From: an uncultured Lachnospiraceae bacterium
GTDB lineage: Bacteria; Bacillota; Clostridia; Lachnospirales; Lachnospiraceae
Length of the DNA: 64,000 nucleotides
Assembly (NCBI GenBank): GCA_949840805.1
Contig: CATKXR010000004.1
Location: 62,001 to 126,000 of the forward strand
Direction of reading: 5' to 3'
Below, piece after piece: positions 1 through 26,307 of the stretch; position 1 is the first letter of the stretch; every line of letters starts with the position of its first letter. A program made the position numbers and the translations under genes. The notes under the pieces were generated by a model. The model was not told where the DNA came from, did not search any database, and saw nothing but the letters and a program-made list of their open reading frames with translations.

Positions 1-279
1 CTTTTCCAAGGCCTGGTCTTTTGGAATGTTGTCAGAATATTCAGGATCCCGGGCCGGGGAATCCGGCTCTTCCGGATCTGTTTCGGAAGGACTGTCTTCT
101 GCATCTAAAGTTTCCCACTCTTCAGCCGCATCCCATTCCTCGGCCACATCCCATTCGGCCGCTTCATCCTCTGCGGATTCCTCCGTCGGCAGGGCAGGCG
201 CTTCTGTCAGCTTGGTTCCACAAATACCGCAAAATATGGCGTCTTCCACCATTTCTGCGCCGCATTTATAACATTTCAT
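1..279 (-). CDS. Zinc-ribbon protein, acidic, cut by the left window edge
   Basis: The reading frame stays open from an ATG at 279 down to base 1, giving 93 residues with no stop, so the C-terminus lies outside the window. An AGGAGGAAAACAG ribosome site sits just upstream of the start. The N-terminus begins MKCYKCGAEMVEDAIFCGIC, with cysteine pairs at 3/6 and 17/20, a typical short zinc ribbon. The rest is strongly acidic (Glu, Asp, Ala, Trp) and looks unstructured. It is the last visible member of a minus-strand series whose members share this kind of N-terminus. The function is unknown; a catalytic or membrane part may lie in the missing portion. Confidence 0.75.
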   Translation of the reverse strand, partial: MKCYKCGAEMVEDAIFCGICGTKLTEAPALPTEESAEDEAAEWDVAEEWDAAEEWETLDAEDSPSETDPEEPDSPARDPEYSDNIPKDQALEK

Positions 280-303
280 CTGTTTTCCTCCTCATGCATC
301 TTT

Positions 304-1131
304 TTACGGCATGGAATCTTCTATTCTTTTTATAAGAAGTATATTATCTTTTTCTATCTGGCTCAACATATCCTCATTAAAAGAAGAAGGGGCAATTGTT
401 CCGTTGTACCAGGATTTTGTGTTAAAATAATTCTGCAATGCTTCCGTGTCAAACCGCCTCCCATGCCTGGCATAGATTTCATTGCGGGCGATTTTCAACT
501 GTTCTTTTGAAAGGCCTGCCAGGTCTGCTTCTGTAAGCCTGCTATAGCTGCTGCTTGGTATCATGTAACTGCTGTCATATCCTCCTGAATTATAATAGGA
601 TGGCGCGGCGGTTGTTGCAGGCGGAGTGTAACTGTAATAATTGGGCGATGGATTTTGATAATCTGGTGCAGAATAATAGGAAGCCGTGGTTTCCATGGCT
701 GGAGTCGTTGCAGACGGCCAGGTTTCAGACGCCGCGGCTGTCTCGGCAGCAGTTGTTGTCTCGGCCGCCGTGGTCTCGGCGGCTGCCGTTGTGGCAGCGG
801 CTTCCTCCTCTTTTCGTTTTCTTTTTTCTCTGGCTTCCCTTCGCTCCTCCCTTTCACTGTCTTCATTGTCCGCCCAGGGGGCGTTGCTGATCAGATCGTC
901 TAACATTCCCTGTTTATACGCAGCGAAAACACCCAGCCCTAAGACCAGCAATAAAAACAAGACCAGCAAAATTCCCGTTAAAATACCTTTTTTCTTTTTC
1001 GGAGGTTTATTTGCCGGTGCCTGCTGCGTGGCAGCCGTATTTTGAGATGGCGCCTGGTTTACGGCGGCTCCACATCCGCTGCAGAATTTGGTTCCGGGTT
1101 TTAATTCTTTGCCGCATTTTGAACAAAACAT
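304..1131 (-). CDS. Zinc-ribbon, single-pass membrane protein with C-terminal YARHG domain
   Basis: The 275-residue protein has four parts. Residues 3-20 form a zinc ribbon with two CxxC pairs. A basic stretch leads into one hydrophobic segment at about 49-71. Next comes a long Ala/Thr/Glu-rich and then Tyr/Pro/Ser-rich linker. The C-terminal 70 residues contain the motif IARNEIYARHGRRF, the signature of the YARHG family, which occurs in extracytoplasmic parts of bacterial proteins. The expected topology is ribbon inside and YARHG outside. The start is supported by an AGGGAGGAAAACA ribosome site. It follows a probable terminator that separates it from the FHA gene upstream, so it may be expressed at a lower level or separately. 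Its biochemical role is unknown; it may be an envelope sensor or effector of the neighbouring kinases. Confidence 0.8.
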   Translation of the reverse strand: MFCSKCGKELKPGTKFCSGCGAAVNQAPSQNTAATQQAPANKPPKKKKGILTGILLVLFLLLVLGLGVFAAYKQGMLDDLISNAPWADNEDSEREERREAREKRKRKEEEAAATTAAAETTAAETTTAAETAAASETWPSATTPAMETTASYYSAPDYQNPSPNYYSYTPPATTAAPSYYNSGGYDSSYMIPSSSYSRLTEADLAGLSKEQLKIARNEIYARHGRRFDTEALQNYFNTKSWYNGTIAPSSFNEDMLSQIEKDNILLIKRIEDSMP

Positions 1132-1183
1132 TGTTTTCCTCCCTCAAAGGCAAAATATTGGTAATGACTCGGTTATCTACATG

Positions 1184-1231
1184 AAAAAGATGCTCTGGCA
1201 TTCATCTCACCGATGAACGCCAAAGCATCTT
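1184..1231 (-). terminator. Intrinsic terminator after the zinc-ribbon/FHA gene
   Basis: An 18-base-pair stem has arms at 1189-1206 and 1212-1229; the two non-Watson-Crick positions are G-U wobbles. On the minus-strand transcript the stem is followed directly by five U residues. It lies between the stop of the FHA gene (1239) and the start of the YARHG gene (1131), so it would end or attenuate the long signalling transcript. Confidence 0.8.
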
Positions 1232-1238
1232 CCCGGTA

Positions 1239-1730
1239 TCAACTGCCCATATCACACTCGGCTACTGTCAGCTCAACCATACCGAATTTTAAACGATCTC
1301 CCACATGGATTTCCTGCGGCTCTTCCACCATCACTCCGTTTAAGTAAGTGTGGTTAAAGGAATTCATATCTTCAACAAAGCAGGCGCCGCCCCGGCAATA
1401 AAATTTGCAATGCTTTCTGGAGACAGATTTATCGCCTTCGATCACCACGTCACAGCTTGAAGCGTCCCGGCCCAGGACGGCAGGATATGCCAGATCACAG
1501 CCATAGACTTTGTTGCTGTCTGTAATGTCCTGCAGCACCAGAAGTCCCTGAGCCGGAATATCTTCCTCGGTATTCGGATCAACATCCGCCATGGAAGCCG
1601 ATGCCGGTTCCGCATTAACATTCTCCTGCGGCGCTGCTGCCTGCGGGTTTTCATTAGCCAGACGTACTCCGCAATAGATACAGAAATTCAGGCCATCGCT
1701 TAATTCCCTTCCACAATTTGTGCAAAACAT
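1239..1730 (-). CDS. Zinc ribbon plus canonical FHA phosphothreonine-binding protein
   Basis: The 163-residue protein has an N-terminal zinc ribbon (MFCTNCGRELSDGLNFCIYC) and a short linker. A complete FHA domain spans roughly residues 75-158. The FHA hallmarks are present: a glycine-arginine turn (VLGRDASSCDVVI), SRKHCKF with the Ser and His that contact phosphothreonine and shape the loop, and the TYLNG turn. This is the only FHA domain in the island with intact binding residues, so it is the likely reader of phosphothreonines written by the neighbouring kinases. It is cytosolic with no membrane segment. It probably shares a transcript with the genes upstream. Confidence 0.88.
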   Translation of the reverse strand: MFCTNCGRELSDGLNFCIYCGVRLANENPQAAAPQENVNAEPASASMADVDPNTEEDIPAQGLLVLQDITDSNKVYGCDLAYPAVLGRDASSCDVVIEGDKSVSRKHCKFYCRGGACFVEDMNSFNHTYLNGVMVEEPQEIHVGDRLKFGMVELTVAECDMGS

Positions 1731-1756
1731 AATCTAACCTTCCTTCTTCTTTACTC

Positions 1757-2659
1757 CTAATCATCATAATAATGATCGTGATCATAATCATAATCATAAT
1801 CGTGGTCGTAATCATGATCATAATCATAATAATCATAATCGTCTCTGCCATAATTACCGCTTTCAACGGCGCGGATGAATTCCTGGATCTCCGCGTCTTC
1901 TGCATACAGATGTTTTAAATCACGTTTTACATTTTCCTCCCACTCGGTCCGTTTCCTGGCCCGTGCTTTTGAATTCAGGTTCATAACATTCTTTTTGTAG
2001 GTCTCATACAATTCATCCTGTTTCTCCTGAATATACTCCAGGTTGCGCTCCTGAACCTGTGACCTCTGATGATCCAGCGCCGTTCCCGGAAGAACCGGCA
2101 GCCATATGTCATCGCCGCCGCCCCGGTTGGCCGCCCGGTTTTCATCGTTTCTGTAATATTTTTTGCCGTCTGCATCATACCGGATGGTAACATTTCCTTC
2201 TTCCGCAAAGCTGTTGCGTTTCAATTCTCCGTTGGGTTCCGCATAGTAGCAGAATCCGCCGGCATCAAAAGAACCGACTGCCATGACGCCATTTTCTTTC
2301 AGATAGTAACGTTTTGGTCCGACATTCAGCCAGGATGTATGCATGGCGCCTCCCTTTTCCGGGTTTAAGTAATACCATGCCCCGTCTACCTGCTTCCAAC
2401 CCATTGCAATGGCGCCGTTTTCAGGCTCGAAATAATACCAATTCCCCTCTACTGTCTGCCAGCCGGTCATCATATGGGCTTCGGCATCAAAGCCGTAACG
2501 TGTACCATCAATATCCACAATCTGATTTCTGGCAAGGGATCCGGAATCAAAGCGATAGATGTCCTTTTCGCCATCCTTTTCCCAGCCTGCCAGAGATGCA
2601 AAAGCCATGGAACATGATAATACGGCCACAATTCCTGCACTTGCTAATTTCTTTTTCAT
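1757..2659 (-). CDS. Secreted protein with choline/glucan-type cell-wall-binding repeats and Asp/Tyr/His tail
   Basis: The 300-residue protein starts with a signal peptide (two lysines, then a hydrophobic run ending in AFASLAG). Residues 40-150 hold consecutive wall-binding repeats with the recurring pattern G-W-x-x-V-x-G-x-W-Y-Y-F, as in CW_binding_1 proteins that attach to teichoic acid choline or to glucan. A charged, probably helical part follows. The protein ends in about 30 residues made almost only of Asp, Tyr and His, which could bind metal ions. An AGGAGGAAAACAAT ribosome site supports the start. It is the only fully secreted product in the kinase island and might be an extracellular partner of the kinase ectodomains; this is inference from position. 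Confidence 0.8.
   Translation of the reverse strand: MKKKLASAGIVAVLSCSMAFASLAGWEKDGEKDIYRFDSGSLARNQIVDIDGTRYGFDAEAHMMTGWQTVEGNWYYFEPENGAIAMGWKQVDGAWYYLNPEKGGAMHTSWLNVGPKRYYLKENGVMAVGSFDAGGFCYYAEPNGELKRNSFAEEGNVTIRYDADGKKYYRNDENRAANRGGGDDIWLPVLPGTALDHQRSQVQERNLEYIQEKQDELYETYKKNVMNLNSKARARKRTEWEENVKRDLKHLYAEDAEIQEFIRAVESGNYGRDDYDYYDYDHDYDHDYDYDYDHDHYYDD
1760..1852 (-). repeat. Low-complexity repeat coding the Asp/Tyr/His tail
   Basis: The DNA consists of near-tandem copies of a 6-base unit (variants of ATCATA and ATCGTG on the plus strand). It codes for alternating Asp with Tyr or His at the C-terminus of the wall-binding protein. Such tracts can change length by slippage in whole or partial codons. 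Confidence 0.75.
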
Positions 2660-2714
2660 ATTGTTTTCCTCCTGAAATAAAATATTTAAGATTTATCATG
2701 TAAACTAAAACCGT

Positions 2715-4934
2715 TTACTGCAGTCGGTCAAAATCGGAATCCCGTCCTTCGGCTGCAGCCGTAGTGGGTGCAGAAGTAGAGGGCGGAGCCGGGGCTTCTG
2801 TAGTAGTCACCGGGTTATTTGCCGGGGCCGAGGCGCCGGATGAACCGTTGCCTGCCGGCTGTCCGCCGCCTGTATTGGCCGGACGGTTATTATTAGCCGG
2901 AGGGTTGTTTGTCCGGCCTCCGCCGGATGTGGAGTTCCTTCCTTGGGTCGGCCTTTCTGGTTCGCGGCCTAAGCTTACCACAATCGTAATTTCCGTACCC
3001 TCATCCACAAGACCCGGTTCAACACTCTGGGAGATTACCCTGCCTTCTTCCACGGCAGCGTTGTATTCTTCTTCAACAGACACCGCCATACCGATGGATT
3101 CCAGGTTAGTGACGGCCTCTTGTCTTTCCTGGTTTAACACGCTTATTAACTGAATCTGCCTTGCTCCAAGGCTTATCTTCACTTTGACGATATCGCCTTT
3201 ATTCCCTTTGGTTCCTGCTTTCGGGGATTGGCCGAAGATCTGTCCTTTTGGCACATCCTTATTATATTCCAATCCTTCTTTTTCCAAAAAAACGCCTGCT
3301 GCCTTCGCTTTTTCCAATCCTTCTTCTTCCATAAAGCCGGTGAATTCCGGCACTTCAGTCTCTCCGGTTCCGGCCTGTTTGCCCGAAGCGATCCGGAGTG
3401 TTATCACCTCGTCCAGGTCAATTTCCGAGTTCCTGTCCGGACGGATTCCTGTAACAAAACCGGCAGGCGCCCACCCTTCCGGATCCGTTTCCGTATTGAC
3501 AGCTATCAACCCCTCTTCCTGAAGCATGGCCATGGCATTGGCTTCTGTCATCCACACCACATCCGGCACCGTTGTCCTGCCGCTGCCGGAGCTGATGACT
3601 ACCCGGATCAGAGAACCTTTCTCAACCTGTATTCCCGCAGACACCTCCTTGCCGTCCTCATCCACCTGTCCCAGAACGTATCCTTCCATGATGGTCTCGG
3701 AGGCTTGGGTTCCCCCTACCTCGTATTTCAGTCCAAGGGATTCCAGACGTTCTTTCGCGGTGCTTTGGGACATATTTACCAGGCTGGGCATCCAGACCAT
3801 ATTTTCTTTTTTTTCAAAGCCCGGAAGCTTGGGCAGGGGGGATTCGATCACTCCTGTCATCAGCAAGGCGCCAAACACTAACACGGCGGCTCCGGCGGCG
3901 GCGCAGACTGCTTTCAGCCAGAGAGGCCATTGTCCTAAATCGTTTTTTTCTACGGTAGCCGCCGTCCGCTTTACATTATTTGAGGTCAAAGCCTGTTCAA
4001 ATTCTTCCGCAGATTTTGTACGGTCTGCGATTTTTACATGTAAAGCATTCATTAAGGCATTTTCGATATTTTTATTAATCGTTACGCCCAGTTTGGAAGG
4101 TTCTTTTAAGGTATCCTTTACTCTGCGTTCCGGTGATTCCGGCGGCCGTATTCCCGTGATCATTTTATAGAATGTCGCCGCAAGGGAATACACATCCGTC
4201 CACGGTCCCTGGTTGCCTCCGCTTTGGTACTGTTCCACAGGGGCATAGCCAAGTTTTAAAATTACGGTCAAAGATTTGCTGTGGGTGGTCGTCACCTGCC
4301 TCGCAGCCCCGAAGTCCAGGAGCTTTACCTGGCCGTTTTCCAATAAATAGATATTATCCGGCGAGATGTCCCTGTGGATAATATTTTTGGCATGAACCTC
4401 TTTTAAGGCGCCGATTACAGCCATAATGATCGGAAGCGCCTCTTCCACCGAAAGTTTCCCCACTTTTTTCAGCCGTGCCTTCAGGGTCTCCCCTTCCAGC
4501 AATTCCATAACAATATAGGCTGTATTATTCTCCTCAAAAAAATCATAGATCTGTGTGATTCCCGGAACCTGATGAAATTCTGCCAGGCGTTTCGCTTCAT
4601 CCAGGGTTTTCTTCATGCCTGCTATAAACTGTTCTTTCTTCTCTCCTGCATATACGCGGACCTGGGTCTCATGGGGCATCCGGGTGGCAAATTCCGATGG
4701 AAAATACTCCTTTATGGCCACTTTATGCTGGAGAGTCTGGTCAAATCCGATATAGGTGATTCCAAAGCCGCCGAAACCCAGCACGCGGCCCACAATATAC
4801 CTCTCCCGGATAACGGTTCCTGGTGCAATATGATAGGCTTCCTTGGCAGGGCTGTCCTGCTCATAGCCGCAATGGGGGCAGACATTATAATCCCCTTCAT
4901 ACTCCTGCATACATCCCAAACATAATGTCTTCAT
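2715..4934 (-). CDS. Transmembrane Ser/Thr protein kinase with zinc ribbon and four PASTA domains
   Basis: The 739-residue protein is a Hanks-type kinase. A zinc ribbon (cysteines 5, 8, 19, 22) precedes a kinase domain at about 45-310. That domain has a glycine loop (GFGGFG), the ATP-anchoring lysine K75 in VAIKEYFP, HRD at 187-189 and DFG at 207-209, so it should be active. One membrane helix lies near 340-362. Outside are four PASTA-like repeats (about 380-660) of the kind that bind muropeptides or lipid II in PrkC and PknB. The protein ends in a Pro/Asn/Thr/Ser-rich tail. The cytosolic ribbon is not part of classical PrkC. It is probably the cell-wall-sensing kinase of the island, reversed by the two PP2C phosphatases encoded upstream. 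Confidence 0.92.
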   Translation of the reverse strand: MKTLCLGCMQEYEGDYNVCPHCGYEQDSPAKEAYHIAPGTVIRERYIVGRVLGFGGFGITYIGFDQTLQHKVAIKEYFPSEFATRMPHETQVRVYAGEKKEQFIAGMKKTLDEAKRLAEFHQVPGITQIYDFFEENNTAYIVMELLEGETLKARLKKVGKLSVEEALPIIMAVIGALKEVHAKNIIHRDISPDNIYLLENGQVKLLDFGAARQVTTTHSKSLTVILKLGYAPVEQYQSGGNQGPWTDVYSLAATFYKMITGIRPPESPERRVKDTLKEPSKLGVTINKNIENALMNALHVKIADRTKSAEEFEQALTSNNVKRTAATVEKNDLGQWPLWLKAVCAAAGAAVLVFGALLMTGVIESPLPKLPGFEKKENMVWMPSLVNMSQSTAKERLESLGLKYEVGGTQASETIMEGYVLGQVDEDGKEVSAGIQVEKGSLIRVVISSGSGRTTVPDVVWMTEANAMAMLQEEGLIAVNTETDPEGWAPAGFVTGIRPDRNSEIDLDEVITLRIASGKQAGTGETEVPEFTGFMEEEGLEKAKAAGVFLEKEGLEYNKDVPKGQIFGQSPKAGTKGNKGDIVKVKISLGARQIQLISVLNQERQEAVTNLESIGMAVSVEEEYNAAVEEGRVISQSVEPGLVDEGTEITIVVSLGREPERPTQGRNSTSGGGRTNNPPANNNRPANTGGGQPAGNGSSGASAPANNPVTTTEAPAPPSTSAPTTAAAEGRDSDFDRLQ

Positions 4935-4969
4935 TTTACTGTTCCTTATCCGTCATGTGATTTTTGCGG

Positions 4970-5461
4970 TTACTCCTCCCAGGAAAAGTCCGGACCGCAC
5001 AGAGGGATGAACATCAGCTTTGTGCCGCCTGTCTGAAGGATATCCCGGTTCTTAAGCTCCAGGCTCATTAAAAGCACCTGGCCATTTATATAGGAAAGTT
5101 CTCTGGCATCCCCCGCATTGGCATAAAAAGCTCTTTTTTCCCGATCATAGGTTACAGTCATCTGGCAGCATCTGGCCACCTGAGGATCCGATGCCAGTAC
5201 AATATCCATATCTGGAGAACCGCCGATCCGGTTCTCTCCCTTTTTCAGATCATAAATCCTTCCGTATGATTCGCCCTCTATACACACCAGCCAGCCCACC
5301 GCCGGTTCCTTAGGCGTTTTCTCCTGCTGCATAGAAACAGCGGCCGGTTCTTCTTCCTGACGGGGTTTGACAGCCGGTTTTTCCGGGCCTCCGCATTTAG
5401 GACAGACCTGATGCTTATCTCCGTCATAAAAATGTCCGTGGACGCAACGTTTTAAATTCAT
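4970..5461 (-). CDS. Zinc-binding N-terminus plus degenerate FHA-like domain
   Basis: The 163-residue protein begins MNLKRCVHGHFYDGDKHQVC followed by PKC, a Cys/His cluster like that of the repeat protein at 9191-10543. The C-terminal half (about 70-160) has the FHA fold pattern, with a GENRIGGSPDMDIVL turn and a YINGQV turn. The usual S-x-x-H phosphothreonine motif is replaced by VARCCQMTV. It may therefore bind something other than phosphothreonine, or serve only as a scaffold. It lies between the pseudokinase and the PASTA kinase on one transcript, with gaps of 20 and 35 bases. The family assignment is moderately sure; the function is unknown. Confidence 0.7.
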   Translation of the reverse strand: MNLKRCVHGHFYDGDKHQVCPKCGGPEKPAVKPRQEEEPAAVSMQQEKTPKEPAVGWLVCIEGESYGRIYDLKKGENRIGGSPDMDIVLASDPQVARCCQMTVTYDREKRAFYANAGDARELSYINGQVLLMSLELKNRDILQTGGTKLMFIPLCGPDFSWEE

Positions 5462-5481
5462 TCTTATTTCCTCCCTGCTGG

Positions 5482-6357
5482 TTAAGTCATTTCAAGAGTA
5501 GCTTCGTCCAGAAATATGTCCGCAAACCTGTGGACAGAAGCAGGTTTTATCATACTGCCTGTTCCCAGGACAGCACGCAGGGCATCCGCCATACACGGGG
5601 GTATCTTCTCCTGCAGGGCGTCCATATTTTCTTCAAAGGAACGCTCTTCCCATGCTTTTTCTCCGGCCAGCATACTGCCGGCTAAGTTGGCAAGCGCCGT
5701 GATATCCTTGTCAGCCGACAAAGGATGGGTGGTATTCCCATTAAAACATCCCAGCAGGCAATTCCCATGGGGGAGCATATAGATATGATCCATATCCACC
5801 TGTCCATGAAATATATCCAGCCTGTGGGCGGCTGAAAGAGGATGGGAGAGATCTTTAACGATCCATTGCACCCGTTCCGGAGAACACATATCGGGATAGC
5901 GGTACACCATTTCACGAAGCGTGTTTCCTTCCGGAAATTCCATGATCACATAGGCAGTGCCATAATCTTCTGTCACAGCCAGAACATTTAAAAGGCCCGG
6001 CGTTTCGTCGAGGATGATCAGCCTGCGACCGGATGTTATAAATTCCCTGAGCCCTGAAAAAAATGCTTCGTTTTCTGAAGACAGGACTTTTATGGCCCCA
6101 TTTTCCATACGGCAAACCATGTTCTCGGGAAAATACTCCATGATCAGAACCTTGCGGGTGAAAAGGGCGTCCCAGCCCATATATAATATATCAGCTTCGT
6201 CCTGACGTTTTACGGCGCCTATAATATATCTGCCTCTCAGAATGCTTCCCGGTTCCATTACCCCTTCCGGTGTGTCAGGGGTTTCTTTGCAGCCGCAGTA
6301 GGGGCAGACCGTATCTTTTTCCTGATACTCCTCCATACAATTCAGACATCGCTTCAT
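5482..6357 (-). CDS. Zinc-ribbon pseudokinase
   Basis: The chosen start (ATG at 6357) places the zinc ribbon MKRCLNCMEEYQEKDTVCPY at the N-terminus, as in its paralogues, and begins 5 bases after the stop of the upstream kinase. The 291 residues follow the kinase fold: a GSILRGRYIIG entry, an AYVIMEFPEG hinge and a helical C-lobe. The catalytic sites are lost. The ATP lysine of VAIKE is methionine (M73 in LIMEYFP), HRD is HGQ at 184-186, and the DFG region reads LLGCFNG. There is no membrane segment. By analogy with known pseudokinases it may regulate or scaffold the active kinases next to it. The glycine-rich loop is also missing, so residual ATP binding is unlikely. Confidence 0.8.
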   Translation of the reverse strand: MKRCLNCMEEYQEKDTVCPYCGCKETPDTPEGVMEPGSILRGRYIIGAVKRQDEADILYMGWDALFTRKVLIMEYFPENMVCRMENGAIKVLSSENEAFFSGLREFITSGRRLIILDETPGLLNVLAVTEDYGTAYVIMEFPEGNTLREMVYRYPDMCSPERVQWIVKDLSHPLSAAHRLDIFHGQVDMDHIYMLPHGNCLLGCFNGNTTHPLSADKDITALANLAGSMLAGEKAWEERSFEENMDALQEKIPPCMADALRAVLGTGSMIKPASVHRFADIFLDEATLEMT

Positions 6358-6362
6358 TTTTC

Positions 6363-8372
6363 TTATTTCCAGCTTTCCATATAGTTCTTGTTTTCGGCAA
6401 GCCACTGGCTTCCCCCTGCCGATGCGTTTTGTATCTGGCTGTCCACCGCTCCCAGATCTCCCTGGTATACATCCTTAAATACCTCATACATGGTGCGGTT
6501 GACAGGGATCCCTTCCAGATCCCTTACCCCTAAGATGCTTTGGGAGTTGGCAGAAAGCATGTAATAGATCATCCATTGGGCAGCTTTTTTCTCATATTTT
6601 CCGGAAGTTCCATTGACGCTCCAAAGGTGGTCAAAGCGTACTTGTACATCGTTTGAAGGAAACTCCACCCGAAACCGGGCGGGCAGCTCCCTGGTTAGCC
6701 TCTGATAATCTCCCGTATCGGAAAGATACCGGTCAGCCTCTCCGTCTATAAACATCTGGCAGCCGTCCGCGTTCATATCTTTTTTATTTTCGTCTGCCAG
6801 CTTTTGGTAATCCCGGATACATTCTTCTCCCAAAAGATCCCTGTATATTAAAAAATCTTCTCTGCGCACAGAAGTTTTCTCTTCTGCGCCATTCGCATCT
6901 GTCCGAACATAGATTACCGGGATTTGAAAGCAAAGGGGCATCTGTTTTTTGTCCGGAAACAGCTCCTCATATTGATCCAGAAACCAGTATCCGTCCTCCG
7001 TTCCTTCGCCGATACGATCCAAGGTAATATTAAGCGGCTCTAAATCTTTCGTGTAAGCCGGATCCAGACAGGCGCTTTCAAACACATCCGGAAGCGTTCC
7101 TGCCGCCGCCGCTTCATTCAGTTTCGTTTCATAATCCGCTTTCTCAAAAGCTTCTATCTGAACGGTAATCTGAGAATAGTCTGTCAGGAAGTCGGCAAGC
7201 ATGGCTTCTGTGCGGGCCGTTGCATTTTCTATGGTGTCATTTTCATCCGCAGCCACCCATATTTGGAGGTTTGCCGGCTGCAGGGTCGCGTCTTCCTGCT
7301 GTTTCTTGTAACGGTGGAAGAAAAATCCTCCTACAGATCCCAAAACAGCTATGGTTGCAGCTACCTGGACCAGGCGCATTTTTCTGCGGCGGAGAAGTTC
7401 TTCTTCTACATCCAGCACTTTTTTCTTTTCCATCAAAGCATCCCGGAACTGATCCGTATTCTGAAAACGCAGTTCCAGTTTTAAGGCCATAGCCCGCATG
7501 ACTGCATTGCTCACGCTTTTTGATATTTCCGGGTCCAGTTTGCGGGGGGCGGCCAGATGATCTTTGTGAAGACGGTCCGTGGATTCTTCCGGCTTTATTC
7601 CGGTCAGGGCAAAATAAGTGGTCGCCCCAACCGCATAAATATCCGTCTGCGGTCCCTGTACCCCATTGGTGCTGTACTGCTCCGGCGGCGCGTAATGGGG
7701 TGTCAGGACGGTTGACATCTCCGTGGCTTCGAACCGTGCCGCGCCAAAGTCGAAAAGCTTTACCACGCCGCTGTTACAAATGAAAATATTATTGGGATTA
7801 ATATCCCGATGGACAATCTTTTCTTTATGTACTTCTTTTAAGGCATCCAGTACTGCCAACGCCACGCCTGTTGCCATGGCCTGGCTTACTTTTCCGCCTT
7901 GTTTGGCAATATAATCTTTATACGTCATACCGTCCATAAATTCCATTACCATGTATGCCGTATTCTTTTCCTCAAAAAAATCATATACGTCCACTATATT
8001 CGGATGTTCGTTAAATTTCGCCATCTTTCTGGCTTCGTTTAAAAAACGTGTCTTTCCCTTTTCAAACTCTTCAATATTTTTTTCCGAATAGGAGCGGACC
8101 TCCATGGTTCCCGGGGTCCTGGTGACAATACTTCCCGGATAATACTCTTTGATTGCCACCATCCTGTTAAAAGTATTATCCCAGGCCTTATATACAATGC
8201 CAAAACCGCCGGCATTAACGGATTCTCCAATCATGTAGCGGCCATCCAGAAGCAAGGTTCCCGGCTCCATATAATACAGGTCATGGGCTTTTGCCGCACG
8301 GCTGTAACCGCAGTAGGGACAAAAATTCGCTTCTTCTGTGTATTCTTTCATGCAACGATAGCAGCGAGCCAT
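6363..8372 (-). CDS. Transmembrane Ser/Thr kinase fused to an extracellular solute-binding-protein-like domain
   Basis: The 669-residue protein has an N-terminal zinc ribbon (MARCYRCMKEYTEEANFCPY). Its kinase domain at 45-315 carries intact motifs: AGGFGIVYKAWD, K75 in VAIKEYYPG, HRD at 188-190 and DFG at 208-210. A basic stretch and one membrane helix follow (about 333-354). The outer 310 residues resemble family 1 extracellular solute-binding proteins. They start NLQIWVAADEND, contain a YETKLNEAAAAGTLPDVFES segment, and near the end have SANSQSILG and GIPVNRTMYEVF, all placed as in sugar-binding lipoproteins. The domain reading is strong by pattern but was not tested by structure prediction. 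The likely role is a kinase that senses a small molecule directly. Confidence 0.85.
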   Translation of the reverse strand: MARCYRCMKEYTEEANFCPYCGYSRAAKAHDLYYMEPGTLLLDGRYMIGESVNAGGFGIVYKAWDNTFNRMVAIKEYYPGSIVTRTPGTMEVRSYSEKNIEEFEKGKTRFLNEARKMAKFNEHPNIVDVYDFFEEKNTAYMVMEFMDGMTYKDYIAKQGGKVSQAMATGVALAVLDALKEVHKEKIVHRDINPNNIFICNSGVVKLFDFGAARFEATEMSTVLTPHYAPPEQYSTNGVQGPQTDIYAVGATTYFALTGIKPEESTDRLHKDHLAAPRKLDPEISKSVSNAVMRAMALKLELRFQNTDQFRDALMEKKKVLDVEEELLRRRKMRLVQVAATIAVLGSVGGFFFHRYKKQQEDATLQPANLQIWVAADENDTIENATARTEAMLADFLTDYSQITVQIEAFEKADYETKLNEAAAAGTLPDVFESACLDPAYTKDLEPLNITLDRIGEGTEDGYWFLDQYEELFPDKKQMPLCFQIPVIYVRTDANGAEEKTSVRREDFLIYRDLLGEECIRDYQKLADENKKDMNADGCQMFIDGEADRYLSDTGDYQRLTRELPARFRVEFPSNDVQVRFDHLWSVNGTSGKYEKKAAQWMIYYMLSANSQSILGVRDLEGIPVNRTMYEVFKDVYQGDLGAVDSQIQNASAGGSQWLAENKNYMESWK

Positions 8373-8376
8373 GATA

Positions 8377-9198
8377 TCATTCCTCCATTTTTCCGCCGTA
8401 ATATTGAATCAGGACAACCGTAGTATTGTCCTGTTTTTTTACCGCTTTTGCAAGAGCCATATCCACCAGCCGTTTTGCGGAAACACGGGCATCGATCTGG
8501 TTGTCTGTCAGCATTGCCTTGATCTGGTCGCTGCTTAAGCTTTTGTACAGTCCATCGCTGCACAGCAGAAGCTGATCTCCCGGTTTTAAGGCAATCTGCC
8601 GCCGGCTCCTGCCAATCTTTTTAATATTGCCGATGCCAAGATAGCTGGTCAGTGCTTCTGCCATCCTGCCTTTTGATTCCCGGTCAAAATGTTCCCGGGT
8701 GATTTCCCCGTTGCGCAGGGAAGTTTCCAAAAAAGTTCTGTAATTCTGATCCCGGGTAAGCTGTTTTAGATCGTCTCCCCGAAGCAGATAGATCCGGCTG
8801 TCCCCTACGGACATCCATTCTGCCGTCCCGTCCCTGCCAACCACAACGGAGACAATTGTGGTTCCTGCGTCCAGCCTGTTCCCGTCCGCGGCTTTCAGCC
8901 CGTGAACCTTTGCGTCCATGCGGACTGCTTCCCGGCAGAGAAAATCTGCAAAATCCCCGGAGGGACGCTTTGTCTGATAATCTTTCAGAAGTGTATTTAC
9001 GGCTTCCCGGCTTGCCCTCTCACCGCCTGAAAGGCCGCCCATGCCGTCGCAAAGGACTGCCAGCACCCTGTCCGGTTCTGCAAGAACTCCTGCATAGTCC
9101 TGCTGTGTCTTCCGGTTTCCGATAATACTATATGCTTCCACAGAAATTTCCGCAGGAAGCTGTTCTTTCCGAAGTTGTACGATATTTAACTCATTCAT
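8377..9198 (-). CDS. PP2C-family protein Ser/Thr phosphatase
   Basis: With the ATG at 9198 the protein has 273 residues and overlaps the upstream FHA-repeat gene by 8 bases. A GTG at 9249 in the same frame would add 17 residues but has a poorer ribosome site. PP2C signatures run in order: an SIIGNRKTQQD entry, the metal-binding DGMGG (D51), GDSRIYLL, a CSDGLY motif, and QDNTTVVLI near the end. It removes phosphate from Ser/Thr and probably reverses the kinases encoded 4 bases downstream. It is cytosolic with no membrane helix. It is one of two PP2Cs in the island. Confidence 0.9.
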   Translation of the reverse strand: MNELNIVQLRKEQLPAEISVEAYSIIGNRKTQQDYAGVLAEPDRVLAVLCDGMGGLSGGERASREAVNTLLKDYQTKRPSGDFADFLCREAVRMDAKVHGLKAADGNRLDAGTTIVSVVVGRDGTAEWMSVGDSRIYLLRGDDLKQLTRDQNYRTFLETSLRNGEITREHFDRESKGRMAEALTSYLGIGNIKKIGRSRRQIALKPGDQLLLCSDGLYKSLSSDQIKAMLTDNQIDARVSAKRLVDMALAKAVKKQDNTTVVLIQYYGGKMEE

Positions 9199-10543
9199 AG
9201 GAGTCCCATAATCTTCCTTCTCTGCAGAATGCAATAAATTCAAACTCACTGTTCCCGGCCCGAATATGATCCCCGGAGGCCAGCTTTACTGCTCCCTGCA
9301 GGTTTTCCTCATTTAGAAAAACATTTTCATCTGCCTGTTTCACTGCAAAAAATTCGTTGTTCTTATCGTCATAAACGACGGCACAGGATGCAAAATCGCC
9401 CAGCTTTGCATCTCCTTTTACCGCAATATCCATTCTGTCGCTGCCGCCAAGCCGGTTGAATCCCTTACACAGCCGGTAATCCGATCCCTTCTGGGGACCG
9501 TCCGTACAAACCAGCCATCCGACTACAAACCCGGAAGGCTGTCCGGGCGCTGCGCTTTGCTGAAGCCCGGAGACTTCCGGCCGAGGCCGCGTTTTGACAG
9601 TTTCGGCTTTTTGTGCCGGAATGCTTACAGGCGGCGCTTCCGTCTGTGACGCGGCCGAGACGGCGGGAGATATGGCGATAGTGCGGTCGTCAAAAGAGGA
9701 AGCGGCCGAAACCGCCGCGGGTATGGCGATAGTGCGGTCGTCGTCCTCGTCATAAGAAGAAGTGGCAGAAGCCGTGGGTATAGCAATGGTGCGGTCGTCG
9801 TCCTCATCAAAAGAGGAAGCGGCCGAGGCGGAAGGTATGGCAATGGTGCGGTCATCATCGTCGTCATAAGAAGAAGTGGTCGAGGCCGCAGAGGGTATGG
9901 CAATGGTGCGGTCGTCGTCCTCGTCATAAGAAGAAGTGGCAGAAGCCGCGGGTATAGCAATGGTGCGGTCGTCGTCCTCGTCAAAAGAGGAAGCGGCCGA
10001 GGCCGCAGAGGGTATGGCAATAGTGCGGTCGTCGTCCTCGTCATAAGAAGCAGTAGCAGAAGCCGCAGGTATGGCAATGGTGCGGTCGTCATCTTCGTCA
10101 TATGGTAATGACTCAGAGGCAGCCGGCATTGCAATGGTGCGGTCATCGTCTTCATCATAAGCCGATTCCTGAGAGGGAGCCGGCATGGCAATGGTACGGT
10201 CATCATCTTCTTCAGAAGACGATGATGCATTGGAAGGGGGAACCGGCATAGCGACCGTGCGGTCGTCGTCTTCAAAAGAATTGCCGCCCGGCATAGCGAC
10301 CGTACTGTCGTCCTCGTCCTTCACCGAAATCTCCGGTTTTGCCGGGGCCTCCTGTTTTTTGTCTTCTCCCCTGCGGAAAAAAGAAAACCGCTTTGATTTA
10401 GGTTTCGCCTTGGCTTCCGGCTGTCCATTGTCCTTCCCGGCCTGCTGTTCTTTCTCCATTACGGGGAGTACTCCGCAGTGGGGACATTGAGAAAATTTCG
10501 TATTATCGTAGTAATGTCCCTTATCGCATCGTATAATTGCCAT
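9191..10543 (-). CDS. FHA-like protein with twelve Asp-rich Thr-x-x-Ile/Met repeats
   Basis: The 450-residue protein has three parts. The N-terminus (MAIIRCDKGHYYDNTKFSQC, then PHCG) is a Cys/His cluster. Residues 76-299 hold twelve copies of a core DDDRT(I/V)A(I/M)P, separated by Ala/Ser linkers of 8-12 residues. Residues 342-442 resemble an FHA domain (GWLVCTDGPQKGSDYRL, GFNRLGGSDRMDI), but the usual SR-x-H phosphothreonine contact is replaced by LGDFASCAVVYD. Each repeat has a Thr with Ile or Met at +3, the spacing preferred by several FHA domains, and acidic residues before it. It may be a multi-site substrate and docking scaffold. An AGGAGG site supports the start. Confidence 0.82.
   Translation of the reverse strand: MAIIRCDKGHYYDNTKFSQCPHCGVLPVMEKEQQAGKDNGQPEAKAKPKSKRFSFFRRGEDKKQEAPAKPEISVKDEDDSTVAMPGGNSFEDDDRTVAMPVPPSNASSSSEEDDDRTIAMPAPSQESAYDEDDDRTIAMPAASESLPYDEDDDRTIAIPAASATASYDEDDDRTIAIPSAASAASSFDEDDDRTIAIPAASATSSYDEDDDRTIAIPSAASTTSSYDDDDDRTIAIPSASAASSFDEDDDRTIAIPTASATSSYDEDDDRTIAIPAAVSAASSFDDRTIAISPAVSAASQTEAPPVSIPAQKAETVKTRPRPEVSGLQQSAAPGQPSGFVVGWLVCTDGPQKGSDYRLCKGFNRLGGSDRMDIAVKGDAKLGDFASCAVVYDDKNNEFFAVKQADENVFLNEENLQGAVKLASGDHIRAGNSEFEFIAFCREGRLWDSYE
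9647..10318 (-). repeat. Coding tandem repeat, 12 units of about 57-60 bases
   Basis: The DNA repeats in phase with the reading frame and gives the Thr-x-x-Ile/Met units. The threonines fall at residues 81, 96, 117, 136, 155, 174, 194, 213, 233, 252, 271 and 288 of the protein. The middle copies are most alike, which suggests recent expansion by unequal exchange; the first two and the last are divergent. The units are not palindromic and have no unique spacers, so this is not a CRISPR array. Confidence 0.9.
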
Positions 10544-10639
10544 AATATCCTCCTCAATTCTTCCGCCTTTTTACTTTTCGTTAATTGTCTGTTGAAAAAT
10601 CGAATATCCAAATGGTTGTCCTGAGGCTATAAACAGCCG

Positions 10640-11365
10640 TTAATCCATCCATACCGCCACTGCAGAATAATTATCCATATTGGTTCCGTGGCCGTTTTTG
10701 CAGATGATGGCCTGCATAGCTTCTATCCATGCATCGGGACTGGCAGCTTTTTTTAAGGTGGATTCCATTTTCTTTTCCTCAATCAGCTCCCAAAATCCGT
10801 CCGTACATAACAAAAAAGCCTGCCTGCCTGCCCGTTTGACAACTTCAGACTCCTGATAGTTTACTTCTTCCGTATCTGTTCCAAGAACCCGCAGAAGGCG
10901 GTTCCTGTCCGGATGATGGCGGATCGCTTTTTCTTTAATCTCACCTGCTGAAACAAGCATTTGAGGTACACTGTGATCCAGGGTTCTCTCCCTGATCTTT
11001 CCGTTAAAAAAATAATACAGGCGGGAGTCTCCTATATGCCCCCAACGGAGGTGTTCCTTCTCAACATCTAAAATCACCAGGGTTGTCTTCATATCCCGGC
11101 ATGTCCGGTCCTCCTGCTGGCGTTTAACAATCGAATCCTGGGCAGCTTCAAATGCGTCCCGCAGAAAGGTTTCTTTATTTTCTCTTGCTGCGAATGTTTT
11201 GACAGCCGTTTCCACTGCCAGCCGGGAAGCTACTTCTCCTTTTCCGTGTCCGCCCAGGCCGTCTGCCAGGAGAAAACAATAGGTCTCCTCGTCCTGGTAC
11301 ATTCCCACGCTGTCCTCATTATTTTCTCTGTTGCCCTTGTCGCTGAATAACGAAAATCTGATCAT
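10640..11365 (-). CDS. PP2C-family protein Ser/Thr phosphatase, first gene of the signalling operon
   Basis: The 241-residue, single-domain cytosolic protein has PP2C motifs in order: RENNEDS (metal Asp 18), LLADGLGGHGKGE (D35), WGHIGDSRLYYF, CTDGFWEL and MDNYSAVAVWMD at the C-terminus. It is about the usual length of PrpC/Stp phosphatases. It is the first gene after the promoter at 11391-11418, with a GAGGT ribosome site. PrpC normally sits beside a single PASTA kinase; here it heads a larger island with a second PP2C. It probably keeps kinase outputs low when no signal is present. Confidence 0.92.
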   Translation of the reverse strand: MIRFSLFSDKGNRENNEDSVGMYQDEETYCFLLADGLGGHGKGEVASRLAVETAVKTFAARENKETFLRDAFEAAQDSIVKRQQEDRTCRDMKTTLVILDVEKEHLRWGHIGDSRLYYFFNGKIRERTLDHSVPQMLVSAGEIKEKAIRHHPDRNRLLRVLGTDTEEVNYQESEVVKRAGRQAFLLCTDGFWELIEEKKMESTLKKAASPDAWIEAMQAIICKNGHGTNMDNYSAVAVWMD

Positions 11366-11390
11366 CGATATACCTCGCTAAGTGTTCTTA

Positions 11391-11418
11391 ATTATATCAT
11401 AAAGACAATATTTGTCAA
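11391..11418 (-). promoter_or_regulatory. Sigma-A promoter of the kinase/phosphatase island
   Basis: On the minus strand a perfect TTGACA (11418-11413) is followed by a 16-base spacer and a perfect TATAAT (11396-11391). It lies 26 bases before the ATG of the first PP2C gene, so the leader is short. No other promoter this good was seen within the island, which favours one long transcript. Confidence 0.85.
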
Positions 11419-11688: not shown

Positions 11689-13806
11689 TTACACTTCAAA
11701 AATCAAATCTCCATAGCTGGGGAACGGCCACAGCTCTTTATCCACAATCATCTCCAAACGGTCTGCCGGGGCTCTCAGAGCCTCCATAGCCGGAACCACT
11801 TTGTCATGGTAGGCATGGGCTTTCGTCATCCCGTCTTCCATACCGGCGCATTTTTCCGTAACATCCGTAAGCGCCGCCAGAGCCACTTTCATATCAGAGA
11901 GCATGGCTGAGGTTTCCGTCAGAAGTTCCGTCTGCACGCTGGTATCCGCTTCCGGGCATGCTGCCTTTACCTCGTTAAGAGATTTGGCAAGCTGGGTTGC
12001 ATATTTAATCGCAGCGGGGATGATCTGCTTCCCTGCCATATCGATCATGGTCTTGGCTTCAATATTGATGACCTTGGAATAGGCTTCATACTCCACTTCG
12101 GCACGGGACTTCAATTCCGCGCGGGTAAATACCCCGAATCCCTCGTACAGCTTTACCGCTTTTTCCGTGGTTAAGGCCGGGATGGCGTCCACCATGGAGC
12201 GGATGTTGGGAAGGCCGCGTTTTTCCGCCTCCTGAACCCAGGCGTCCGAATAGCCGTTGCCATTGAAAATAATCCTCTTGTGTTCCTTTAAAAGCTTCTT
12301 AATCAAATCGTGGACTGCCATATCAAAGTCTTCCGCATTTTCCAGCTCGTCTGCCGCTTCCTTAAATGCCTCTGCCACAATGGTGTTCAGCACGACGTTA
12401 GGCGGGGCGATAGAATCGGAAGATCCTACCATACGAAATTCGAATTTATTTCCCGTAAAGGCAAAAGGCGAGGTGCGGTTCCGGTCCGTGGCGTCCTGGT
12501 CTAAGTCAGGAAGAGTCGCCACGCCTGTTCTTAGCGTACCGCCTTTCTTGGAATGGGTCGCCTCGCCGGTGCTGCAGAGCTGATCGATCACATCCTCAAG
12601 CTGTTCGCCTAAAAACACGGAAATAATGGCCGGAGGAGCTTCGTTGGCTCCCAGCCGGTGGTCATTTCCCACATCTGCCGCCGACTCCCGAAGAAGATCC
12701 GCATGGATATCCACCGCTTTCAGGATACATCCCAAAACCAGCAAAAACTGGACGTTTTCATGAGGCGTTTCTCCCGGGCTTAAAAGGTTTACTCCGTCAT
12801 CCGAGGTCAGTGACCAGTTATTGTGTTTACCGGAGCCGTTTACTCCTGCAAAAGGCTTTTCGTGAAGCAGGCAGGTCAGCCCGTGGCGTCCGGCCACTTT
12901 TTTCAGTGTTTCCATTATCATCTGGTTGTGGTCCACCGCCAGGTTGGCCTGGTCGTAAATCGGAGCCAGCTCATGCTGTGCCGGGGCCACCTCGTTATGC
13001 TGGGTTTTTGCTGTCACGCCCAGTTTCCACAGTTCTTCGTTGACTTCTTTCATATAAGAACCGATCCGCTCGCGGATCGCGCCAAAATAGTGATCTTCCA
13101 GTTCCTGCCCTTTTGGCGGCATGGCGCCGAATAAAGTACGTCCTGCATAGATCAGATCTTTTCTCTGAAGATACTTGGCCCGGTCCACCAGGAAGTATTC
13201 CTGTTCCGGTCCCACGGACGGGCATACCCGTTTGGCGGTGGTATTGCCAAACAGCCGTAAAATCCTTAAGGACTGCTTATCGATGGCCTGCATTGACCGG
13301 AGAAGCGGTGTCTTCTGGTCCAGGGCCTCGCCTTTGTAAGAACAAAAGGCAGTGGGGATACAGAGTGTGACACCGATGGCATCCTGCCGCAGAAATGCCG
13401 GCGATGTACAGTCCCATGCGGTATATCCTCTGGCCTCGAAGGTGGCGCGCAGCCCTCCGGACGGGAAGGAAGATGCGTCCGGTTCCCCTTTGATCAGCTC
13501 CTTGCCGGAAAACTCCATGATGACCTTTCCTTCAGTATCCGGCGCCGAGATAAAGGAATCGTGCTTTTCGGCGGTCACTCCGGTTAAAGGCTGGAACCAG
13601 TGGGTATAGTGAGTGGCGCCCCTTTCTATGGCCCAGTCTTTCATGGCATGGGCGACGACATCTGCAATGGAAGGATCCAGTTCCGCGCCGTCTTCAATGG
13701 TCTTTTTCATTTTCTTAAATACGCTCTTAGGCAGACGCTCTCTCATTACTGTCTCGTTGAACACGTTTTTGCCAAATATTTCTGCTACCTTTACGATCTC
13801 GCTCAT
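11689..13806 (-). CDS. glnN: Type III glutamine synthetase
   Basis: The enzyme makes glutamine from glutamate, ammonia and ATP in the cytosol. The 705-residue length and the start [20 protein letters not shown] are typical of the GSIII family of Bacteroidetes, Clostridia and cyanobacteria, and far longer than type I (about 450). Family stretches are visible: [47 protein letters not shown] and [19 protein letters not shown]. The start at 13806 is chosen over upstream in-frame starts because it matches the family N-terminus and follows a good site (GAGAGGAAAGG). The gene stands alone between its own promoter and terminator. No ammonium-transporter or PII gene is adjacent. Confidence 0.96.
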
Positions 13807-13956
13807 AGGTTTTCCTTTCCTCTCCTCAAAATACCTGTCTCCGTTTTCCGGAACCGGTACAGGTTTCAACAGTCTGCCCTGCGGGGCATGCCCGTCCGCA
13901 ACAGCAGAAAAGGCGTCCTTCCTCATTTCCTTGGAAGAACACCTTCGTTCCTTATT

Positions 13957-13985
13957 AAAATAAACCATCTGCTCTGAAATTGCAA
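13957..13985 (-). promoter_or_regulatory. Probable sigma-A promoter of glnN
   Basis: On the minus strand TTGCAA (13985-13980) is spaced 17 bases from TATTTT (13962-13957). It would give a leader of about 140 bases before the glnN start. No known riboswitch was recognised in the leader. The -10 is imperfect, so the assignment is moderate. Confidence 0.5.
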
Positions 13986-14051
13986 GCACTTTTTTGATTT
14001 TTTTAATCCGGACGGGATAACAGACTGGCAGGGACAGCCGGAAAATTCATC

Positions 14052-19470: not shown

Positions 19471-19473
19471 ATT

Positions 19474-20451: not shown

Positions 20452-20591
20452 AAGTTCCTTTCCGTGGCAAATACTGCACGATCTGTTATTAAAAAAATTA
20501 AGAGAACACAAAAAACAAGTAATTTTACTTCTTGTTTAAAGCATGGTATGATTAAAATATAACAAACAAACGCCATAACTTTTCCGGATCG

Positions 20592-21458: not shown

Positions 21459-21585
21459 AGAGCTTGTCCTTTCTTGAATCGGTATTACTGGGATTATAGC
21501 ACAGGAATCCGTTTTTAGAAACAGGGAGATCACAAAGGTAATTATGTATTACAAATAAAATTTTAATAAGAGGGAGGTTTTTCAC

Positions 21586-22707: not shown

Positions 22708-22785
22708 AGGATCTTTATAAAAGGCGGCTGTTGCGGCAAAAAAAGGCCGCATACAGATGAAAAACAGATTAAGATGTGAAAGATA

Positions 22786-22837
22786 CGCCCTGTATGGCAT
22801 GGCAGTGACATGCCGTGCCGCGCGGGGCGGTTTTTTT
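22786..22837 (+). terminator. Hairpin with U-run between tctC and tctB (attenuating terminator)
   Basis: A stem-loop runs from CGCCC (22786) to GGGCG (22829), with an inner GGCATG/CATGCC stem, and is followed by seven T residues. It lies inside an otherwise obvious operon, so it probably lets only part of the transcript continue into tctBA. This pattern is common after binding-protein genes. Confidence 0.7.
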
Positions 22838-22874
22838 ACTCTGCAGGTCTGGAATACAGGAAAGGGGAAACAAC

Positions 22875-23312: not shown

Positions 23313-23331
23313 GAAAGGATGGTAAAACGGT

Positions 23332-24801: not shown

Positions 24802-24873
24802 AAACGCGCGGAAATAAATTAGAAATATTTAGAGAAACGCAAAAATATCTTACTATATTTAATCGAATTATCG

Positions 24874-24882
24874 TGTTATAAT
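24874..24882 (+). promoter_or_regulatory. Extended -10 promoter before gudD
   Basis: A perfect TATAAT at 24877-24882 is preceded by TGT, the extended -10 element. No good -35 was found. It lies 55 bases before the gudD start, so gudD can be transcribed apart from tctCBA. Confidence 0.55.
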
Positions 24883-24937
24883 AGAATTACAGAGGCAAAA
24901 CGAAGCAAAAACGATTAAATTAAAGGAGGAAGCAGTA

Positions 24938-26293: not shown

Positions 26294-26307
26294 TCCTGAC
26301 ACAGAGG

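Follow-up and report, generated by a model that had tools for sequence, protein, structure and literature searches.

We analyzed a window of 64,000 nucleotides from an uncultured Lachnospiraceae bacterium (GenBank assembly GCA_949840805.1, contig CATKXR010000004.1, positions 62,001 to 126,000; G000:C4:62001-126000 in our own numbering), taken from a genome bin of 5.0 Mb that is 90.04% complete and 6.35% contaminated. The window opens with an island of kinase, PP2C phosphatase and FHA genes. We lean towards reading this island as the half that senses and scaffolds in a membrane-based Ser/Thr phosphorylation switch. The main client of this switch in the lineage would be a type VII secretion system (T7SS) that is encoded at another place in the genome and seems not to be of type b. 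The best reading of the whole is a variant of secretion-linked threonine phosphorylation control, and not a wholly new kind of system. The gene content, the integrity of the kinases, the conservation of a threonine motif, the gene linkage in relatives and the co-occurrence with EssC, all described below, were computed.

The island comprises the first ten genes and part of the eleventh of a co-directional 13-gene cluster (about 13 kb) that extends past base 1 of the window. The gene maps were made with our own hidden Markov models from few sequences, length-based calling of open reading frames, a Kyte-Doolittle rule for transmembrane (TM) helices and a Cys pattern for ribbons. The features are as follows (pThr, phosphothreonine; SBP, solute-binding protein; aa, amino acids):

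11391..11418, minus strand: sigma-70 consensus promoter, TTGACA-16-TATAAT with a TG extension, 12/12 matches
10640..11365, minus strand: g01, PP2C phosphatase A, 241 aa (Pfam PP2C_2, 1.6e-18)
9191..10543, minus strand: g02, candidate ribbon-FHA scaffold, 450 aa, with a CxxGH..CPHC ribbon, 11-12 DDDRTIAxP motifs and an FHA-like domain without the pThr pocket
9640..10320, minus strand (approximate): acidic threonine motif array within g02, spacing 15-21 residues, mostly 19-20
8377..9198, minus strand: g03, PP2C phosphatase B (Pfam PP2C_2, 3.9e-15); the start is an internal ATG, and the gene overlaps the end of g02
6363..8372, minus strand: g04, ribbon, kinase, TM helix and SBP-like ectodomain, 669 aa (Pfam Pkinase, 4.8e-40; SBP_bac_8, 9.7e-9)
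5482..6357, minus strand: g05, ribbon pseudokinase without TM helix (Lys, HRD and DFG lost)
4970..5461, minus strand: g06, second ribbon-FHA protein, pThr pocket degenerate
2715..4934, minus strand: g07, ribbon, kinase, TM helix and four PASTA repeats, 739 aa (Pfam PASTA, 1.2e-35; Pkinase, 8.8e-33)
1757..2659, minus strand: g08, secreted wall-binding protein with choline-binding-type repeats (Pfam Choline_bind_3, 1.5e-18)
1239..1730, minus strand: g09, ribbon and canonical FHA domain, a putative reader, 163 aa (Pfam FHA, 6.5e-19; GR and SRKH kept)
1187..1231, minus strand: long hairpin with T-run in the g09-g10 gap, probable terminator
304..1131, minus strand: g10, ribbon-TM-YARHG protein (Pfam YARHG, 2.7e-27)
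1..279, minus strand: g11, start of a ribbon-acidic linker-ribbon-TM protein, the rest outside the window
L002 17325-17741, beyond the window: g12, coiled coil (by eye) and C-terminal ribbon
L002 16285-17265, beyond the window: g13, TM helix and M15 peptidase domain

An earlier, sequence-only reading of the window had described one consensus promoter followed by minus-strand genes for two PP2Cs, two intact TM kinases, one pseudokinase, three FHA or FHA-like proteins, a secreted wall-binding protein and a YARHG membrane protein. Open reading frames and Pfam bear out this inventory: every gene was found on the minus strand in its expected place, namely g01 and g03, g04 and g07, g05, g08 and g10 for the respective kinds. 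The three FHA proteins are g02, g06 and g09, but only g09 is canonical, since the Arg and Ser that bind pThr are missing from g02 and g06. The extent also needed correction, because the cluster runs on beyond base 1, where g11 is completed and g12 and g13 follow. The gene set and order are kept in close relatives, which supports the earlier reading, in full in L019, L020 and L021 and with extra genes in L022 and L023; in all five a g01 orthologue (64-85% identical) stands first in the same gene order. Three things had escaped the earlier reading: the threonine-motif repeats in g02, the connection with a type VII secretion system, and how near the kinases are to PpkA.

The link to type VII secretion comes from the relatives. 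The g05 protein and the EssC of one relative (G011) were each searched in the same 61 genomes, of which 24, G000 included, belong to the genus of the window. A g05 orthologue (E < 1e-50) and an EssC of the G011 type were both present in 8 of the 24 same-genus genomes and both absent in the other 16. This EssC is 74-76% identical to the G011 query in the seven others; it is of full length in 7 of the 8 and cut by a contig end in G008. In G011, G013 and G023, the g01-g08 orthologues form an unbroken run with genes for EssC, YukD and WXG100 proteins (YukD and WXG100 of G013 by eye), and this joint cluster also holds genes for a vWA-TM-FHA protein, a further ribbon kinase, an FHA-FHA-ABC exporter and TM-FHA proteins (part of G013 by eye). 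A g08 homologue adjoins EssC in G008, and in G000, G012, G014 and G022 the T7SS part lies on a separate contig from the kinase half. On the contig of G000 concerned (C40) are five WXG100-like genes, YukD, a LytTR gene, a 237-aa gene shared with G011 that had no Pfam match, EssC, and genes for TM-FHA and vWA-TM-FHA proteins. Because the same genes stand beside a T7SS in close relatives, the module probably switches such a machine on and off.

As for the machine itself, an EssC with N-terminal FHA and FtsK/SpoIIIE domains, WXG100 proteins and YukD, the components of a T7SSb-type system, are present (in G000; Pfam of the G011 orthologues), and the best solved match of the G011 EssC is YukB (8.8e-141). 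The EssB/YukC family PF10140 gave no match in G000, a bin of 90% completeness, and was found in the Bacillus subtilis control; the system is thus probably not a T7SSb in the strict sense. In the vWA-TM-FHA proteins, 35 of the 36 rows, three of which are pieces of one G000 gene, fit a loose pThr-pocket pattern. We also mapped six more loci whose EssC is of this type, complete in length and 47-52% identical. In G036 and G026 a TM kinase, a PP2C and a vWA-TM-FHA protein are encoded beside EssC; G384 has a PP2C and a kinase there, G353 a kinase fragment and G294 a PP2C. Ribbon kinases occur at another locus in G353, G384, G356 and G294, and the g05 search found no ribbon-kinase match in G026.

The kinases point to the same kind of control. 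The catalytic Lys (in VAIK), HRD and DFG are intact in g04 and g07, and all three are lost in g05 in each of eight aligned sequences (window and seven orthologues). PpkA is a kinase of the PpkA-PppA-Fha threonine phosphorylation pathway of type VI secretion systems (T6SS), and among solved chains it is the nearest kinase to both g04 (160 bits versus 96 for the next) and g07 (155 versus 98), a ranking of solved chains only and not a phylogeny. It is also nearest to a g05 profile (63.6 versus 50.7 bits, among the best 60 of 1032 matches) and is the best fold match, among the best 50, of the AlphaFold model of g05 (predicted local distance difference test, pLDDT, 91.2). We considered g05 as a replacement of EssB and rejected this, EssB being absent from those best 60 of 1032 sequence matches and best 50 fold matches, with PpkA first in both. 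We propose instead that g05 is a pseudokinase adaptor, the only reading of it that we kept. In several same-genus clusters without EssC (L025, L026, L029, L030), the slot of g05 is taken by a longer ribbon protein (about 760-820 aa), which has a TM helix and in which the kinase motifs are altered. An extra kinase-like gene follows the cluster in another relative (L019 1918-3351, genome G012), in which pattern searches found no catalytic motifs. A search with PADLOC matched the kinases to kinase models (PD-T4-6, mad6 and others), the PP2Cs to one model (PDC-M21C) and g10, weakly, to one, with no match for g02, g06, g09 or the vWA-TM-FHA protein; we read these matches as domain likeness only and rejected a defence system.

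The candidate substrate is g02. Together with g06 it forms one family, with a CxxGHxYD..CPxC ribbon, a linker and an FHA domain. Neither protein matched a Pfam-A family over its cut-off or any NCBIfam model. Pfam FHA was detected at E <= 1e-3 in 31 of 37 family members, the profile of these 37 has GarA and OdhI as its nearest solved structures, and the strands of the AlphaFold model of g06 (pLDDT 90.5) fit a ribbon and a beta-sandwich. The Arg and Ser/Thr of the pThr pocket are both kept in 68 of 85 distinct family sequences; one or both are lost in 17, including g02 and g06. In a family tree built on few columns and with many open forks, g02 and g06 fall in two separate lines. In each, members with a degenerate pocket sit close to same-genus members that are mostly canonical, which suggests that the pocket was lost from both paralogues within one lineage.

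The linker of g02 carries 11 motif copies by a strict rule or 12 by a relaxed one, and those of L019, L020 and L021 carry 10, 9 and 8 (strict). The codon differences in the window are 166 synonymous and 66 non-synonymous for the motifs, against 104 and 275 for the spacers; synonymous differences exceed non-synonymous ones in the motifs of all four genomes, and the reverse holds in the spacers. Since the motifs were chosen by amino-acid pattern, this test is partly circular, and it was repeated on positions -1, +3 and +4, which were unused in choosing. The window then gave 47 synonymous and 38 non-synonymous differences, versus 48 and 211 in the spacers, and thus the motif is still better conserved than the spacers. 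At the same positions in L019, L020 and L021 the non-synonymous differences outnumber the synonymous ones (29:50, 23:40 and 15:40, synonymous first), yet by less than in the spacers, and are mostly R/H/S and M/I exchanges. Furthermore, the linkers of 71 family members without an array contain 86 acidic Thr motifs, compared with 16.6 +- 4.4 after shuffling, and at least one occurs in 46 of the 71, compared with 13.7 expected; the members are related, hence no formal probability is attached to these figures. From its sequence, g02 is probably a multivalent phospho-scaffold. A comparison with GarA did not align its ETTS motif with the Thr motif, and we keep no more than a likeness of arrangement between the two. 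We saw no description of ribbon-FHA hubs, of the motif array or of the module in the open-access literature, which leaves most subscription papers outside.

The following mechanism may be proposed. The state of the envelope would be sensed by the kinases g04, through its solute-binding-type ectodomain, and g07, through PASTA repeats directed to the wall. By phosphorylating the acidic Thr motifs, these kinases would give g02 as many as 12 pThr docking sites in a row. FHA proteins with a canonical pocket would then assemble on g02 at the membrane, namely g09, the vWA-TM-FHA protein and perhaps further ones encoded at the EssC locus, with g05 joining as a non-catalytic adaptor. The gathered complex would license the assembly or the firing of the EssC/WXG100 machine, and the PP2Cs g01 and g03 would reset the switch. 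The suggestion of the sequence-only reading that several outside cues are read fits the differing ectodomains of the two kinases. To our knowledge, the control of the onset of type VII secretion in Firmicutes is largely unexplained. This gene set offers concrete sensors in its SBP-like and PASTA ectodomains, the g02 array as a concrete candidate substrate, and both readers and erasers; the genomes with and without EssC are natural comparisons. Whether a single phosphorylation module serves several unrelated delivery machines also becomes testable.

Several observations weigh against a secretion switch. We infer who phosphorylates and who binds whom, as well as secretion as the output. In the genome of the window the kinase half and the T7SS half are unlinked, and joining their contigs (C4 and C40) rests partly on the relatives, because of the incompleteness and contamination of the bin. 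The division of the genus into 8 and 16 genomes is one or few evolutionary events. The FHA domain of this EssC type keeps S..H and has S, N, A or K at the key Arg site. In the six further EssC loci, a kinase or PP2C stands beside EssC in five, the vWA-TM-FHA gene in only two, and G356 has neither kinase nor PP2C there. Seven other same-genus genomes have ribbon kinases and no such EssC, the clusters of six of them having been mapped. A profile scan of named genomes for ribbon kinases confirmed 561 candidates, the best 80 of which represent 79 distinct loci, and 36 of 50 genomes from these loci have no EssC at E <= 1e-60. The remaining 14 of 50, a lower bound since one genome with an EssC-like gene (that of L129) was not counted, exceed the 22 of 293 Clostridia (p = 1e-4), which speaks for the link, although the 50 were hand-picked from the 79 loci and differ in taxa from this background. 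At the level of the class, among the 293 Clostridia the ribbon-FHA family was found in 28 (E <= 1e-40; table cut at 1e-8), EssC in 22 and both in 4, and the association is weak (4 of 28 versus 18 of 265, p = 0.15), a test that is blurred because the family includes a kinase-less type. The modules without EssC and this weak association led us to reject T7SS as the only client; similar modules without EssC being common, T7SS is one client, favoured yet not exclusive.

An alternative explanation, close to the sequence-only reading, takes the island as a stand-alone envelope-stress module: its kinases would read wall and solute cues, its output would be wall remodelling through g08, g10 and g13 or transcription, and the T7SS neighbourhood in relatives would be incidental. 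Most of the searched ribbon-kinase genomes have similar modules without EssC, the three envelope-type genes stand in the same run, and FHA-FHA-ABC exporters, another possible output, occur at 7 of the 79 loci. We nevertheless regard this explanation as rather unlikely, since it does not account for the strict co-occurrence of g05 and EssC in the genus or for the joint cluster of G011, G013 and G023. A PrkC/PrpC (PknB/PstP) pair consists of a PASTA kinase with a PP2C, and the island might be a duplicate of it with accessory genes, g07 being an ordinary PASTA kinase and g01 and g03 its phosphatases in cell-wall homeostasis. The four PASTA repeats, the PP2C neighbours and the best NCBIfam models (PknB_PASTA_kin for g07, Stp1_PP2C_phos for g01 and g03) agree with this, but the scores lie below the cut-offs (295.7 bits versus 450 for g07; below 230 for both phosphatases), the genome has another PASTA kinase (on contig C8), and the kinase domain of g07 is nearer to PpkA than to PknA, Stk1, StkP and PknB. 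Thus, despite its PASTA repeats g07 is not simply a second PrkC, and we give this duplicate little credence, the least of the explanations weighed here. The island also differs from such a pair in its extra kinase, pseudokinase, ribbons and FHA scaffolds.

The array of g02 might be a simple acidic repeat without phospho-function, for instance a spacer or a metal-binding tail. It is of low complexity, and its copy number varies from 8 to 11 among the four genomes (12 by the other rule). However, the motif positions, including those unused in choosing, change less than the spacers, and single motif copies are enriched in the family, which makes a simple repeat improbable.

We now compare the proposed secretion-linked phosphorylation switch with systems already described. 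The sequence-only reading had suspected an undescribed system. No name for it was found in searches of the open-access literature, but kinase, phosphatase and FHA genes with T7SS variants have been published: Garrett, Higginson and Palmer (2024, PMC11217815) describe T7SS subtypes c-j, several with a TM Ser/Thr kinase, a PPM phosphatase and FHA proteins, and suggest phospho-regulation without explaining it. Shared with these subtypes are the EssC-type ATPase, the WXG100 proteins, mostly a YukD-like protein and the kinase, PPM and FHA genes, as well as the vWA component in T7SSc. The combination of TM kinase, PPM phosphatase and FHA protein with EssC known from T7SSe and T7SSj is present as one cluster in the relatives and as two loci in G000. 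In contrast to them, the present system has several kinases with N-terminal ribbons, a pseudokinase, a ribbon-FHA protein with a Thr array and a vWA-TM-FHA protein, and its kinase/FHA half is split off in the genome of the window. The DUF6382-FHA protein (TsxJ) of T7SSe and T7SSj had no match among the island and T7SS-locus proteins that were scanned, a part of all the genes, and the words 'Zinc' and 'PASTA' are absent from the main text of PMC11217815.

Threonine phosphorylation in T6SS (PMC5995506), the PknG and YukC cases below and the phospho-regulation suggested for some T7SS subtypes are precedents for the proposed mechanism. The island shares a TM kinase, a PP2C and an FHA protein with the PpkA-PppA-Fha pathway, and g04, g05 and g07 are nearest to PpkA among solved chains; here, unlike there, a T7SS is the likely client, and ribbons, PASTA and SBP-like ectodomains, two PP2Cs, a pseudokinase and a motif array are found. 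By eye we recognised no T6SS apparatus genes beside the island, whose neighbours were not scanned against families. PknG phosphorylates GarA/OdhI next to the FHA domain, with GlnH as a solute-binding sensor (PMC8546545); similar here are an FHA protein with a Thr motif on its N-terminal side and a solute-binding sensor, and the mycobacterial kinase has a rubredoxin-like domain. The output of PknG, however, is metabolic, its GarA ETTS motif did not align with the motif of g02, and the intact pThr pocket typical of GarA and OdhI is lacking in g02 and g06, whereas an acidic Thr motif in front of the FHA domain is present and enriched in the family. In B. subtilis, the pseudokinase YukC binds the FHA region of YukB, apparently without phosphorylation (PMC9600267). 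The TerY-P triad of vWA, PP2C and ribbon kinase (PMC11090510, citing Anantharaman 2012) and the kinase-ribbon/PP2C/vWA set of actinobacterial GAP1-N2 systems (PMC7159879) resemble our set in this combination, and a WXG100/FtsK-like operon lies beside some TerY-P triads. The ribbon of TerY-P is C-terminal, whereas here it is N-terminal, TM helices are present in most of the kinases, and vWA, instead of standing alone, is fused to a TM helix and an FHA domain.

Related modules occur in many Clostridia and a few other bacteria, which supports the sequence-only reading. At the 79 loci a ribbon kinase was recognised in 77, a PP2C in 56, a member of the ribbon-FHA family in 51, another FHA protein in 50, vWA in 17, FHA-ABC exporters in 7 and T7SS genes in 4. 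Ribbon kinase, PP2C and ribbon-FHA protein occur together in 50, and 16 have no PP2C, FHA or ribbon-FHA gene inside the available stretch; since contig ends truncate many of the loci, such absences are provisional. Loci with all three include those of Bacillus sp. FJAT-29790, Bacillus dakarensis, Fredinandcohnia quinoae and Desulfosporosinus acididurans, and also Methylomonas lenta and two Bryobacterales metagenome-assembled genomes. In the class of the Bacillus locus, the ribbon-FHA family (E <= 1e-30) is present in 15 of 151 genomes, and the two loci mapped besides L071 are of the kinase-less type.

Two such kinase-less loci, with ribbon-FHA genes and no adjacent kinase, lie elsewhere in the genome of the window (on C30, L134 and L159; on C42, L135 and L160), and similar ones are L140, L141, L143, L146, L147, L161 and L162. 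They contain PP2C genes (mostly two, with TM helices), mostly a TM-FHA protein, in several cases DUF4280 (PAAR-like, IglG-related), and a VgrG-like spike protein with solved matches of about 1e-5. A broadly similar set recurs elsewhere in the Clostridia, and also in two genomes from the class to which the Bacillus locus belongs. For the other conserved genes that were scanned, Pfam and NCBIfam gave no match of note, and D725 and D160, the two compared with the PDB, had no convincing match there. In gene content this cluster resembles a phospho-controlled locus of the contractile-injection or T6SS-like type.

A more general possibility, which we put forward tentatively, is that the T6SS threonine phosphorylation pathway has a widespread and so far unnamed equivalent with its centre in Gram-positives. 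It would consist of PpkA-like kinases with N-terminal ribbons, PP2Cs and a ribbon-FHA hub, plugged into unrelated delivery machines, namely T7SS and the VgrG-like/DUF4280 injection-like locus of Clostridia and Bacilli. In the lineage of the window, the pThr pocket would have disappeared from both hub paralogues and one of them would have gained as many as 12 phospho-sites, so that a switch binding to itself became a multivalent scaffold that works one way only.

The zinc ribbons are concentrated in the cluster. Of 13 places in the 5.0-Mb genome that match Pfam Zn_Ribbon_1 (E <= 0.01), 6 lie in these 13 kb, and 11 of the 13, including 5 of the 6, exceed the family cut-off; this concentration is thus real and not chance. 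The eight N-terminal ribbons that the sequence-only reading had counted were found (g02, g04, g05, g06, g07, g09, g10 and g11), except that the first knuckle of g02 and g06 is CxxGH and not a Cys pair. We did not keep its idea of one shared tag in the form given, because by sequence there are three classes of ribbon (mean identity 0.44-0.54 within a class and 0.19-0.36 between classes), each tied to its own kind of protein. That ribbons bind one another as a shared docking tag is unproven.

The predicted promoter at 11391-11418 matches the consensus at all 12 positions, and promoter-like sites overall barely exceed chance there (23 found versus 16.7 expected). The gaps between g01 and g09 range from the short g02/g03 overlap to 96 bases, and the g09-g10 gap is 107 bases. 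The hairpin in the latter, an inverted repeat of about 20 pairs and longer than most terminators, is matched by one at the corresponding site in L019, L020 and L021, and has no further copy within the window. It dominates the folding of the gap (-40 kcal/mol in the window, -41 to -57 in these relatives). Because this strong hairpin is conserved, g01-g09 probably form one transcript and g10-g13 another. The g11 protein is short in the genome of the window (154 aa) and in L019 (151 aa), versus 664 in L020 (14401-16395) and 653 in L021 (10947-12908), so an ectodomain was lost or gained inside the lineage.

Directly upstream of the island and co-directional with it, a gene for a glutamine-synthetase-like protein was read from its translation (11689-13989); by eye, a gene of similar length is at this position in L019, and not in L020 or L022. 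This neighbour is curious given the glutamate role of PknG-GarA. Farther on, the window contains a sugar-acid catabolism cluster (17950-27715, by eye) with dehydratase-like genes, a tripartite tricarboxylate-type transporter and regulators, and downstream of the island lies a V/A-type ATPase gene cluster (L002 4644-13270, by eye).

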